DNA of 30,543 nt from a virus. The DNA lies in the IMG/VR virus record IMGVR_UViG_3300042296_000045, positions 1 to 30,543 of that record; one strand, written 5' to 3'. Of the stretch, positions 2,008 through 8,621 are shown piece after piece; positions within the stretch are counted from its first letter, which is position 1, and the number at the start of each line of letters is the position of its first letter. The notes under the pieces were generated by a model. The model did no database searches. It had not been told where the DNA came from and was given only the letters and a program-made list of their open reading frames with translations. The position numbers and the translations under genes were made by a program.

Positions 2008-2616
2008 TTATAGTATCCATCTAAATCTTGAATCAAATCTATTATTCCTTAATAAATATTTTTGATTATTGTAATCAATATTTGTTAATCTACAAGCTTC
2101 TTTTAAACCATAATATTCAATATTTGTTATTTTATCTATTACAGGTTTAGAATTAGATTTAGCCATTTTTAATTTACTTTCATCAGAAAATTTTATATTT
2201 TTAGAATGCGATTCGTTATTTTTATAATATTGAATTAATCCAATTCTTGACTTTTCAATATGTTCTTTAGAAGTTTTTAATCCTTTATTCCAACTTGGTT
2301 TACCAATTTTTTTTTCGCTCATTATTTTTTTAGATTCAACAGAATGTGTGTTTCCAAAATTACCTTCCCCACCTAAAGTTATATTTGATAAATTTTTTAT
2401 CCCATACTCACTTATTAAAAAAATCTCTAATTCACAAGCTTCTTCCCATAACAAATTTTCATATATTATTTCTACTTCATAATCTGTTTTATTTACTATA
2501 TTTTTCCAATATTGATTTCTTCCGTCTTTTCTAAAGGCTCTTCTTTCTTCTTTACCAATACCTATATAAAATATTTTATTGGTATCTAATCTTCTATGTC
2601 TATAAACAATTGCCAT
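2008..2616 (-). CDS. GIY-YIG homing endonuclease with NUMOD3 repeats
   Basis: The 202-residue protein begins MAIVYRHRRLD, two bases after the stop of the connector gene; a longer start 15 bases upstream would overlap that gene. Residues 3-45 form a GIY-YIG nuclease variant (VYRH ... FYIGIG ... RA ... RN.YWKNI). The centre carries NUMOD3-type DNA-binding motifs (SWNKGLK, SKEHIEKSR), and the C-terminus resembles the helix-turn-helix tail of such enzymes. It is free-standing, with no intron visible, and is inserted between virion genes. Its codon use is even more AT-rich than its neighbours. It is most likely a mobile selfish gene rather than a virion component. Confidence 0.85.
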   Translation of the reverse strand: MAIVYRHRRLDTNKIFYIGIGKEERRAFRKDGRNQYWKNIVNKTDYEVEIIYENLLWEEACELEIFLISEYGIKNLSNITLGGEGNFGNTHSVESKKIMSEKKIGKPSWNKGLKTSKEHIEKSRIGLIQYYKNNESHSKNIKFSDESKLKMAKSNSKPVIDKITNIEYYGLKEACRLTNIDYNNQKYLLRNNRFDSRFRWIL

Positions 2617-2618
2617 AA

Positions 2619-3119
2619 TTATAAAACCCAACCGGTAAAAGAACTATCTGTATCAGGGTAAACATCAGCATTTGAATTTTGGTTATATTCAGGAAACGAA
2701 GATTGATTAAAACACATATAATCTATAAACCTATTTGTGTAAGATTGTGCAACATCACGCTCTTTTTCAATCAAGAAATCTATTTCGTTTTTATCTACGT
2801 TTGTACTTGCTTCGCTTGTGTGTTTAAATACACCTTTATTAGCAATAGTATAAGCAGCGTAGGGCAAATATTCTACCATAGACCAATGTATTACCATAGG
2901 TTTGATATAAGTGCTTAAAAGCGTTGTATATGGTTCTTCTAAATCACCTGAAACTATATCATCATTAATCCTTTTAAATAATCGAGTACCAAGATAGTTC
3001 TGTATATGAATATCTTGAGCAATTTTAATAAATTGTATAAATTTATCAGTATCAATATTGCCATTTAATGCAGTAAATTTTACAATATCATCACGAGTTA
3101 TAAAGAGTGCCTGTGCCAT
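2619..3119 (-). CDS. Head-tail connector-like protein
   Basis: This 166-residue protein lies immediately downstream of the portal gene (3-base gap). The helical pattern 'FI..D.VKFTALNGN.D.DKFIQFIKIAQDIHIQNYLG' and the ending FTGWVL match a family that I recognise next to portals in flavobacterial siphophages and that behaves like gp6-type head completion/connector proteins. Role inferred: joins the portal ring to the neck. No catalytic residues are expected or seen. Confidence 0.65.
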   Translation of the reverse strand: MAQALFITRDDIVKFTALNGNIDTDKFIQFIKIAQDIHIQNYLGTRLFKRINDDIVSGDLEEPYTTLLSTYIKPMVIHWSMVEYLPYAAYTIANKGVFKHTSEASTNVDKNEIDFLIEKERDVAQSYTNRFIDYMCFNQSSFPEYNQNSNADVYPDTDSSFTGWVL

Positions 3120-3122
3120 TTG

Positions 3123-4904
3123 TTATTTATTATAATTTGGGTGGTGTCCTCTGTTTGGCATATCAATAGGTGCAATTTGCGCTTCTGACCATCCTGCAGG
3201 GTTTGGATTGTAACCTGCAATAGATGAAACTTCTTCACTTGAACTTAATGATTTATCTACATAAGGTGTACCATCTGTTTTTGTTTTTAATCTATAAAGA
3301 TTCTCATTCCATACGTGGCCACAGTTAACCCCGCCCTTATATTTGAACAAAGAATAATTTTGACCTTTATGCCCAAAAGAATTATTTACACCTATAAAAC
3401 TTGCTTGGTCTATATCTTCTTTTCTGTAAACAACACCATTTGCAGTTCTACCCATCATTCGTTTGCAAAATTCACGTGAATTACCACTTGAATATTTTTC
3501 AGCATATTCATAACGTACTTTAAATGTTTTTTTGTCTAATGTACTTTTAGCACTTGGATTAGATTTAATAACATCAGCTAATTTTTCAAATAAAGTTTGT
3601 TTAGCTTTAATTTTAGAATTTGCCCATTCTTCAATAGATATATTTGAATCTGAATATTCACGTTTATCTACTAATTCCCATTCATCATCTATAGTTTCAC
3701 CTGCTAAAGAATCTAATAACGCTTCGCCTTCTTCATCTGTAAAATCTGAACTTAAACAAGTATGTGAACTTAAACCTGTTTCTTCAGCTACTTGTTCTTG
3801 TGTAGTAGTGTTTTCTAAATCAGTAAATTCTAACGGCTGAATAGTTTTAAAGTATAGTTTCAATGAAATACCATTAATAGCTAAAATTTCATCTAAAGCA
3901 GCACAAATTTCTTCTTGGTATGGTTTAATAACAATGTTATCAAATAACAAAGTAGCAGTTTTAATTTCATCTGCATTATTACCTAAACCACCATCACCTG
4001 TACGTACTCCTAATAACATAGGCGAAGTTACACGATGTCCTACAATTAGTTTTTCAAAACATTCTTTGCTTAAGTATTCGTAATGTGCCGGTGCATCAGT
4101 TAAAGGTAAATCATCAACTGTAGTTTTACTTTCTGCATTAGCATTAAAAGCTACAATTACTTTTTCACCACGTGCGCCTGTTAGTTTAGAAAGTACATCG
4201 CTTTTAATTCTTTCGCGCATTTCTTCAGAAGGAATACCATTGTTAAAATTGATAACTTTAGTTCCGCTAAATCCGTTAGAAATATCATTAATTAGATAAT
4301 CAGATATAGTTTCTTCTAAATAGGCGTATGGTAAAGAACCTGAATAATCTATAGGTGTATAATAGTGAAATCCACTAACATAAGGTTTTACAATATAAAT
4401 TTCTACTTCGTTTCCGTTACCAAAACCAAAAGCAGGAATCTTTTTAGGTTCTTCACTTGGTTTTTTCTTTGTCCAATCAGGGAAATAATACCAATTTTCA
4501 ATTTCGCCTTTATCGTTGCATTTTTCAGCACGTAAAGTGTGCATAGGAAAGTGTGAAATAGATTTAACTTGTTTCTTTTCCATTACAACTTGCATTGCAG
4601 CCATCCCCAATAATTTGCGCTCTAATGCTACCTTTTTTAAACAATCAGGTTTAATTAAAGAAATCATTTGCGCATACTCATTAGGCTTTTTATTAGCATC
4701 TAATGCACCGATACCTTTACCATATATCATATTAGTAATACCGGTAATAATAGCACCGTTTGAAGTACTATACAAATATCTATCTATTAAATACTGAAAG
4801 TAATTGTTGTCGTTTCCGTATTCAATATAATTGGCTTTTTTATTCTCCTTAATTTCGGGTGAAGTATAAGCCGATAAATTAACAACTGAAATATTATTAG
4901 TCAT
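3123..4904 (-). CDS. Portal protein with an extra C-terminal domain
   Basis: The portal forms the dodecameric channel for DNA at the capsid vertex. Residues 1 to about 400 show the portal features: an N-terminal 'Y.EYG.DN.YFQYL.DRYL' segment, 'NGAIITGITNMIYGKG', a wing region with YYTPIDYSGSLPY, and the conserved helix region 'ISDYLINDISNGFSGTKVI.FN.G.P..E'. Residues of about 430-593 form a separate domain with EEWA, REFCKRMM, GVVYRKEDI, YKGGVNCGHVW and a PIDMPNRG tail. I associate that domain with the C-termini of XkdF-type protease proteins in related phages; here it sits on the portal. At 593 residues the protein is longer than a plain portal. Together with the major capsid and terminase genes this supports a siphophage-like head. 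Confidence 0.8.
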   Translation of the reverse strand: MTNNISVVNLSAYTSPEIKENKKANYIEYGNDNNYFQYLIDRYLYSTSNGAIITGITNMIYGKGIGALDANKKPNEYAQMISLIKPDCLKKVALERKLLGMAAMQVVMEKKQVKSISHFPMHTLRAEKCNDKGEIENWYYFPDWTKKKPSEEPKKIPAFGFGNGNEVEIYIVKPYVSGFHYYTPIDYSGSLPYAYLEETISDYLINDISNGFSGTKVINFNNGIPSEEMRERIKSDVLSKLTGARGEKVIVAFNANAESKTTVDDLPLTDAPAHYEYLSKECFEKLIVGHRVTSPMLLGVRTGDGGLGNNADEIKTATLLFDNIVIKPYQEEICAALDEILAINGISLKLYFKTIQPLEFTDLENTTTQEQVAEETGLSSHTCLSSDFTDEEGEALLDSLAGETIDDEWELVDKREYSDSNISIEEWANSKIKAKQTLFEKLADVIKSNPSAKSTLDKKTFKVRYEYAEKYSSGNSREFCKRMMGRTANGVVYRKEDIDQASFIGVNNSFGHKGQNYSLFKYKGGVNCGHVWNENLYRLKTKTDGTPYVDKSLSSSEEVSSIAGYNPNPAGWSEAQIAPIDMPNRGHHPNYNK

Positions 4905-6930: not shown

Positions 6931-7479
6931 TTAGTTAAAAAGTTTAGACATTACAATATCTTGTGTAGACATTGCTCGGTTAGGTGATATTTTATTTAAT
7001 TTAACAGTTGAAGTAACTTCAGGTGAATGTGTTAAAGGTTGAACATCAACTTCAGCACTTAATTGTACTTCTTCTTTTACTGATTTTAATTCAGCAATTT
7101 CAGCACGTAGTTTTTCAATTTCAGAAAAGAACATTTCTTTAGTGATTGATTCAACTACACGTTTAGGAGTAGCAGGAGCAGCACTCATTTCTTCTTCATT
7201 AGTAGTTTCTACTTCTTCAGTTTCAGGGGCAATAACTTCTTCTTCAGGCATTTCAATAGAAGCAATAACACCTTCTACTTCAACTTTTAAAACCATTCCA
7301 TCTTCAAGTTTGTATTCCCCTACAGGCAAAGCAATTCTATCTTCACCGTTTACAATAAATACCGCTGCTTCAGCCTCAAACATTTCTGCTTCGATAACAG
7401 TAACACCATCTTCAAGTTTCATTTGGGTAAGTTTTACCTCCATTCCCAATAACGTTTTGATTTCGTTAATTACATTCAT
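6931..7479 (-). CDS. Capsid assembly scaffold-like protein
   Basis: This 182-residue acidic protein ends 9 bases before the capsid gene. Residues 15-80 hold 'LEDG..VIEAE.FEAEAAVFIV' and 'IALPVGEYKLEDGMVLKVEVEG', a beta-rich segment typical of the protein preceding the capsid gene in Bacteroidetes phages. Residues 110-145 form a predicted coiled coil (MFFSEIEKLRAEIAELKSVKEEV), and the tail ends in a short helix (TQDIVMSKLFN). Coiled-coil scaffold proteins are usually cleaved out by the prohead protease, here encoded just upstream. Role inferred from position and architecture. Confidence 0.65.
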   Translation of the reverse strand: MNVINEIKTLLGMEVKLTQMKLEDGVTVIEAEMFEAEAAVFIVNGEDRIALPVGEYKLEDGMVLKVEVEGVIASIEMPEEEVIAPETEEVETTNEEEMSAAPATPKRVVESITKEMFFSEIEKLRAEIAELKSVKEEVQLSAEVDVQPLTHSPEVTSTVKLNKISPNRAMSTQDIVMSKLFN

Positions 7480-7526
7480 AGTACATTTTTTATTTATTAA
7501 TAATTGTTGTTTTAAATTGTTATAAA

Positions 7527-7682
7527 TTAGTTTGGTGCAGGTTCGTTACCTTGTCCTACTAAACTACCTATACCTTGTTCGTGTAATTCACCTGTGCAGC
7601 ATTTAGAATCGTATGTACCATTCTTACACAAGCACCCACGTTTACCACCTTTTGGTGATGTTACTTTTAGTTTCTTATTCAT
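7527..7682 (-). CDS. Cysteine-rich microprotein in the capsid block
   Basis: This 51-residue protein starts with an ATG that overlaps the stop of the protease C-terminal reading frame (8-base overlap). It reads MNKKLKVTSPKGGKRGCLCK followed by NGTYDSKCCTGELHEQGIG. Four cysteines (17, 19, 28, 29) in a C-x-C ... C-C layout suggest metal binding or cross-linking. I recognise the G-C-L-C-x-x-G-T-Y ... C-C-x-G-x-L ... Q-G-I-G pattern from short proteins near capsid genes of Bacteroidetes phages. Function unknown. Confidence 0.7.
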   Translation of the reverse strand: MNKKLKVTSPKGGKRGCLCKNGTYDSKCCTGELHEQGIGSLVGQGNEPAPN

Positions 7683-7986
7683 TTCTAATTTGTTTTAGTT
7701 TTCGTTGTGCCCATTCTATACCTGCATCACCACCCCAAGCTAACCACATTAATCTACCGCAGCCATCACCTAATTCTTTATTTGAATTTTGCCTTTGTCT
7801 TTCAAAGGAAGCCATACGTGCTATAGTATCTTCGCTAATATTTTCACGATTAGCTAATTGGTTTGCTCTTGCTTTTCCTACAGGCGTACCACAAGAACCC
7901 CAACCGTTTTCTTCTGCCCAACGTAAAGCTATTTTAGCGTTTTCTGTAGCTTGTTTTGGGTAGTCGTTATATGTTTCTAATTGGAC
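7675..7986 (-). CDS. Protease C-terminal domain read by -1 frameshift
   Basis: A 103-codon open frame follows the protease gene in the -1 frame and has no ATG, GTG or TTG between its upstream stop and its conserved part. The sequence runs VQLETYNDYPKQATENAKIA, then WAEENGWGSCGTPVGKARA, 'LANRENISEDTIARMASFER' and 'GDGCGRLMWLAWGGDAGIEWA'. I recognise this domain as normally fused in frame to virion morphogenesis proteins in related phages. It is reached from the protease by a -1 slip on the A10 run at 7987-7996, giving a fusion of about 301 residues. Alternatives are transcriptional slippage or a homopolymer sequencing error. Confidence 0.8.
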   Translation of the reverse strand, partial: VQLETYNDYPKQATENAKIALRWAEENGWGSCGTPVGKARANQLANRENISEDTIARMASFERQRQNSNKELGDGCGRLMWLAWGGDAGIEWAQRKLKQIRNE

Positions 7987-8579
7987 TTTTTTTTTTCGTT
8001 TGATAAAATCAATTCTTTAATTTTTTCAATCAATTCAAGTTCTTTATTTTGAGCTGATAGTTTTTGTTCATCACTAAAATAACCTTCAACACTTATACCT
8101 AAATAAGTTCCATTTTTAATTTCTGCCCAAACTTTGTCGTTATCAATACTCATAATAACCGCCCAAGAACCTTCTGTAGCATTTAAATCATACAAAGCAG
8201 TTTTATCCATTTTAGGATTTTCAACTGTCCAAGATTCAACAACTGAAACACCTTCAACTTCTGTTTTATGTTCTAAAGTAGCGTTGTTATTATTTAACTT
8301 TTTTAAGTATAATCTTGCTGCCTTATTTACTGTATCTTTTGAAAATGTAATGTTATATTCATAATCACCATTTCTTCTATAAATAAGTTTATCAGGAACT
8401 AAAGCCAAACCTATAATGATTCGTTTTTCATCATCAATAGATTTAAATTCTATTCTATGATTATTTAAAGCTACCCACGTTTCTTCAGTAGCAGGAAACT
8501 TTACTAAACTTAATGCTTCAATACCATCTTTATCGGTATTTTCATCAATGAATAATTCTATAGTATCTAATTTAGCCAT
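7977..8579 (-). CDS. Prohead (capsid maturation) protease, XkdF family
   Basis: This 200-residue protein matches the XkdF-type phage serine protease. ATLEHKTEVEGVSVVESWTV is at about residues 100-119, with the probable catalytic His104. 'GSWAVIMSIDNDKVWAEIKNG' follows, and 'YLGISVEGYFSD' carries the probable nucleophile Ser163. It would cleave the scaffold and capsid proteins during head maturation. The zero frame ends at TAG directly after a run of ten A, and a conserved C-terminal domain continues in the -1 frame, so a short and a long product are expected. It lies between tape measure and scaffold genes. Confidence 0.85.
   Translation of the reverse strand: MAKLDTIELFIDENTDKDGIEALSLVKFPATEETWVALNNHRIEFKSIDDEKRIIIGLALVPDKLIYRRNGDYEYNITFSKDTVNKAARLYLKKLNNNNATLEHKTEVEGVSVVESWTVENPKMDKTALYDLNATEGSWAVIMSIDNDKVWAEIKNGTYLGISVEGYFSDEQKLSAQNKELELIEKIKELILSNEKKKSN
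7986..7992 (-). other. Slippery heptamer A_AAA_AAG (-1 frameshift site)
   Basis: In the protease frame the codons are GAA AAA AAA AAG TCC AAT TAG, giving the heptamer A_AAA_AAG, the classic dnaX-type -1 slippery sequence, 7 bases before the zero-frame stop triplet. Slipping back one base leads directly into the C-terminal domain (GTC CAA TTA...). The run is ten A in total (7987-7996). Confidence 0.75.
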
Positions 8580-8621
8580 CGTTTTTTATTTTAAAATTAA
8601 TTTATACTGATTTTGTTTTAT

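Follow-up and report, generated by a model that had tools for sequence, protein, structure and literature searches.

The window analysed here, which is the whole stretch of 30,543 nucleotides of the IMG/VR record IMGVR_UViG_3300042296_000045, carries on its minus strand an XkdF-like capsid protease gene that meets a second open frame at a run of ten adenines (Table 1). The XkdF-like identity proposed in the initial annotation was supported by the match of the protease core to PF14550 (Peptidase_S78_2/XkdF; E=1.2e-16, 61.3 bits vs a cut-off of 24). The protease ORF ended in SNEKKKSN*, its last codons being GAA AAA AAA AAG TCC AAT TAG as annotated, and the run was exactly ten A long. The -1 frame was open from stop to stop over 8016..7675, and its codons after the run began with GTC CAA TTA GAA ACA (VQLET). 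The start-less continuation of 103 codons that had been described in this frame was found as such, and the window ORF list contained no ORF of at least 60 aa in the -1 frame starting from ATG, GTG, or TTG. A separate start for the -1 frame was considered and rejected, since none of these three codons occurs before the domain and the separate HAD gene of relatives has an ATG. Gene callers give the window protease as a plain 200-aa protein, so that the module is lost.

Table 1. Positions of the protease gene, the A run, and the -1 frame in the window
Feature	Position	Strand	Remarks
XkdF-like capsid protease core	7977..8579	-	frame 0, 200 aa; Pfam PF14550 and PHROG head maturation protease families
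Putative A10 slippage run	7987..7996	-	T10 on the plus strand; same in independent contigs
Heptamer A_AAA_AAG, in protease frame	7986..7992	-	from sequence
Frame-0 stop TAG	7977..7979	-	two codons past the run
Start-less C-terminal helical module, -1 frame	7678..7986	-	103 codons from GTC; about 101 aa from LETYNDYP
Stop codon of the -1 frame	7675..7677	-	
Small Cys-rich ORF (SPKGGKRGCLCKNG)	7548..7682	-	overlaps the module end

The small Cys-rich ORF was located directly after the protease in many relatives, among them those without the module. The gene after the protease (6931-7479, minus strand) matched the C-terminal half of PHROG 24921 and the protease matched the N-terminal half, and in phage P12024S both halves were present in one protein of 349 aa (179-1228). 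An ORF among the structural genes (2008-2631, minus strand) resembled, by eye, a GIY-YIG-type homing endonuclease and contained an A9 run in the sense strand at 2307-2315.

Conservation of the -1 frame and exchange of the module

The -1 frame had been called conserved in the initial annotation, and this was upheld: the A10 run and the -1 frame were kept in four independent IMG/VR contigs (L082, L083, L086, and L169), with the -1 frame under purifying selection. In the C-terminal region, all 16 of the codons differing between the window and L083 were synonymous in the -1 frame, a pattern not expected of an untranslated stretch. The differing codons were likewise synonymous in 12 of 15 cases against L082 and in 11 of 13 against L086 and L169. 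A pattern derived from the site, GAAAAAAAAAAGTNCARYT, occurred in 15 stretches among 2.9 million viral contigs; 14 of these coincided with the 3' end of a gene for an XkdF protease, continued in each case in the -1 frame. At nine GAAAAAAAAAAGTNCARYT loci, one of them shared with L120, the -1 frame encoded a different domain, also start-less, which was assigned as HAD-like by a DxDxT motif read by eye (the PHROG match to nucleotidase was weak). The dN/dS values of these HAD-like modules in the -1 frame were 0.00-0.30, mostly near 0.1. A sequencing error or a broken gene was ruled out by the presence of A10 in independent contigs, the synonymous differences in the -1 frame, and the HAD dN/dS values. 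One GAAAAAAAAAAGTNCARYT locus, L166 (reverse strand near 3675), contained a divergent protease with A10, and its -1 module had lost an internal segment and stopped prematurely, representing either a decayed copy or an assembly fault.

The module of the window was predicted by AlphaFold2 to be an all-helical domain of five helices with a pLDDT of 93. No solved relative was found for it in the PDB by structure or by sequence, and no family in Pfam or NCBIfam. The fold recurred among viral predicted structures, on XkdF proteins, prohead proteases, portals, and others, and sequence matches to the module were also present in archaeal tailed viruses. Our guess is that the module plays its role in or near the prohead.

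Presence of the module was linked to presence of the run. Relatives with 96-98% identity in the protease lacked the module and the A run together; L084 and L085, for example, had 97% DNA identity up to the protease end and neither run nor module, and the window was about 300 bases longer there. In a sample gathered by protein similarity, the module was directly behind the protease in 24 of 24 proteases with A9 or longer and in 4 of 56 without the run. Among the proteases of the window type, all seven with the run had a module, which was the helical domain in six and the HAD domain in L120. The HAD-like domain was also found out of frame in -1 with other 3' flanks, after A10 GTAAACC in L184 and after A10 TTAG in L515, and because these flanks differ, the putative slippage site appears to outlast the changes around it. 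As judged from these comparisons, the C-terminal module is exchangeable. The protease and module are indeed joined at A10, as the initial annotation had stated, but the module can hardly be called the protease's own C-terminal domain, since it is exchanged and since near-identical proteases lack both module and run. At the level of sequence comparison, the site was conserved, the -1 frame was selected as protein, and the run and an exchangeable module occurred together.

In-frame junctions in portal genes

In L007 and L002, the helical module of the window was joined through A10 without a change of frame, and a -1 stop followed immediately. A second pattern, AAAAAAAAAAGATTGANTTR, occurred in 109 stretches; among the 80 listed, nearly all were in-frame junctions, mostly between a portal core, about 390 residues long, and several kinds of modules. 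Since selection by a DNA pattern would bias the sample, portals were collected by protein similarity, which gave 155 core/module junctions. A run of A9-A15, within the range of about nine or more that transcriptional slippage needs, was present at 139 of these junctions and absent from 16. The two other frames were closed as well, so that either of them leads to a defined end in the in-frame portals: the -1 stop was at most one codon away in 89% of the junctions (13% in the background at Lys/Asn codons), and the +1 stop at most four codons away in 97% (32% in the background). At some junctions the -1 stop was as far as 4-10 codons away. The residue after KKK varied freely among I, T, N, S, F, and C, with V in the proteases, and the -1 stop behind it was nearly always kept as TGA, TAA, or TAG. 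Such -1 stops were found in 31 of 36 distinct linkers, and about 15 were expected from synonymous randomisation. In portals with a GC content of 0.42, Lys was encoded by AAG 918 times and by AAA 680 times, and the junctions still used AAA AAA.

A census of A runs on the sense strand of 511 kb of non-redundant ORFs from portal-bearing loci gave 173 A7, 21 A8, 10 A9, and 72 A10. A portal junction was the site of 85 of the 87 runs of at least nine A (two of the 85 being in cut contigs and assigned by sequence), although the sequences are related and the counts are not independent events. No A7 or A8 was present at the junction site, and the run was never shorter than nine where present. The in-frame clades kept the frame whatever the run length. 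The portal tails behind A10 in L188, L200, L203, and L253 contained the helical domain, a HAD-like domain, 'KPNAGESKDDFLGRC', and 'RYRYGP..REFC' in varying sets.

The portal of the window itself (3123-4904, minus strand; PHROG portal, E=2e-86) has a long C-terminal tail. Unlike most of its relatives, its gene had no A run of eight or more, which suggests a tail in permanent fusion with the core. Among named phages, only Nonlabens phages P12024S/L were related in protease and portal, and the junctions of P12024S had no A10. A first scan of genome contigs yielded no relatives; a profile scan of genome contigs yielded seven, among which L462, from a Lutibacter MAG, had A10 at the portal junction. 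A flavobacterial host is likely for the window phage, and the same slippage device would be shared by many related phages, in their portal and protease genes; the hosts of these phages are probably flavobacteria.

A proposed slippage mechanism

We propose that the A10 run of the window is a programmed slippage site, which would set the ratio of the protease core (200 aa) to the core with the helical module (about 301 aa). If no slippage occurred, the ribosome would meet a stop two codons past the run and release the 200-aa form. Translation would run on into the module if the transcript gained a net one A or if the ribosome made the equivalent -1 shift, and the predicted junction peptide is identical for the two routes. 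Most relatives would have the opposite polarity, in which the module is in frame on the portal or protease core and slippage yields the core alone, as each of the other two frames runs straight into a stop. In either case, the purpose would be to equip only a fraction of the portal or protease subunits with the module. The short and long protease foreseen in the initial annotation are implied by the site together with the start-less frame under purifying selection. Recoding at the A run is very probable.

The slipping machine is probably, in the main, RNA polymerase. Polymerase slippage fits somewhat better because, across the relatives, the runs are at least nine long, C or T is tolerated after the run, both other frames are closed, and no conserved SD-like element or stem-loop was seen. 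A ribosomal -1 frameshift of the E. coli dnaX type, with a transcript that always has A10, would also account for the long form of the window protease and, in the in-frame clades, for the short forms, and we regard it as possible but doubtful. A_AAA_AAG is the best-known bacterial slippery heptamer; it lies in the right frame in the window, and A10G contains two in-frame slippery heptamers. In the in-frame clades the nearest stop is the -1 stop. Every out-of-frame module was found in -1 and none in +1, which speaks against the polymerase and which ribosomal shifting would match too. However, the run was never cut to the six A's needed by the heptamer, relatives contained A10C and A10T, and the +1 frame was closed as well. 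An upstream SD-like element was absent from the window and present at one of the 17 sites tested (L166). Folding of the downstream 70 nt was stronger than that of shuffled sequences in the window (z -3.3) and L184 (z -3.9), with most other sites near 0, and neither an RNA structure nor an SD-like element was conserved among the sites compared. An Rfam search of window positions 7500-8600 yielded sub-threshold matches only. The dnaX-type ribosomal shift of the initial annotation was thus borne out as regards the in-frame heptamer and the change of frame at A10, while the lack of a clearly conserved SD-like element or stem-loop and the C or T after the run argue somewhat against the ribosome as the agent.

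It is very unlikely that A10 and its flank serve only as a conserved linker, that is, a recombination joint or a poly-lysine hinge from which no slippage product matters. Shuffling of modules does happen at the A10 point, but such a linker leaves unexplained the purifying selection on out-of-frame modules that have no start codon, the persistence of the -1 stops while amino acids and stop type change, and the use of AAA AAA for Lys even where AAG is commoner. Also very unlikely is an assembly error or a homopolymer phase variation at the DNA level that puts each genome either in or out of frame, since, mutable as A10 is by replication slippage and with A12, A13, or A15 in some relatives, the window clade showed A10 in five assemblies made independently, as did all HAD contigs of the first set, L184 and L515 were out of frame with different flanks, and the in-frame clades stayed in frame at any run length.

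Returning to slippage by RNA polymerase, we lean slightly towards the view that in this large group of phages, probably those of Flavobacteriia, such slippage at A9-A15 is a standard joint between core and exchangeable module in the portal and XkdF protease. Each virus would then produce a set mixture of subunits with and without the module, and the polarity could be either one. The number of subunits in a portal ring is fixed, and the prohead is where the protease is believed to work. If a heritable slip site let only some subunits carry the extra tail, mixed portal rings or mixed protease pools would result, and studies confined to the annotated gene would overlook them. With its two polarities, the site would offer a natural experiment in the tuning of subunit ratios by phages.

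Comparison with known systems

Slippage at poly-A is known in dnaX, tssM, and IS elements. No earlier description of frameshifting or slippage in portal or XkdF genes was found in the open-licence PMC literature, which agrees with the impression in the initial annotation that a frameshifted XkdF protease had not been described. Within that literature, the proposed slippage-added modules on portal and XkdF genes appear to be new, and frameshift-added C-terminal domains and poly-A slippage are known.

Ig-like domains are added by frameshift to coat and tail proteins of phages T3, A2, A118, and PSA (PMC5009743). In the part of that source drawn on here, the likeness lies in a C-terminal module on a fraction of a virion protein, in some cases in frame and in others shifted, and portals are not mentioned among the carriers of frameshift-added domains. 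Our case differs from these additions in the helical or HAD-like module, the portal and protease carriers, and the long A run; no immunoglobulin-like beta-sandwich was present in the predicted structure of the window module. The lambda tail chaperone gpG/gpGT is similar in being a minor fusion product of a -1 shift in a phage structural operon, whereas here an XkdF protease is encoded and the site is a run of A9-A15.

In Citrobacter rodentium tssM1 and Yersinia tssM3, transcriptional slippage at A11 or poly-A produces the longer protein from one gene and the shorter protein from the other, and SD and structure are absent near the tssM1 site (PMC4256274). The poly-A run ahead of a stop and the occurrence of both polarities are shared with our case; the tssM product is a membrane protein of a secretion system for which slippage was shown by experiment, whereas the phage morphogenesis proteins here are supported by comparative evidence. 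Published slippage on 9-11 A gives two products in both polarities (PMC1088944, PMC4256274).

In Thermus thermophilus dnaX, tau and gamma arise by transcriptional slippage at A9, with a threshold of about nine A (PMC1088944), and transcription has been proposed as the route for the dnaX type with ten A (PMC3711429). As in dnaX of T. thermophilus and of E. coli, with its ribosomal -1 shift at A_AAA_AAG, a short and a long protein would come from one gene at an A run. The genes here differ in encoding phage portals and proteases, in the exchangeable module, and in that the E. coli stimulators were not seen as conserved. The polarity of dnaX, in which the normal frame gives the long protein and slippage shortens it, is that of the in-frame portal and protease clades, and it is reversed in the window.
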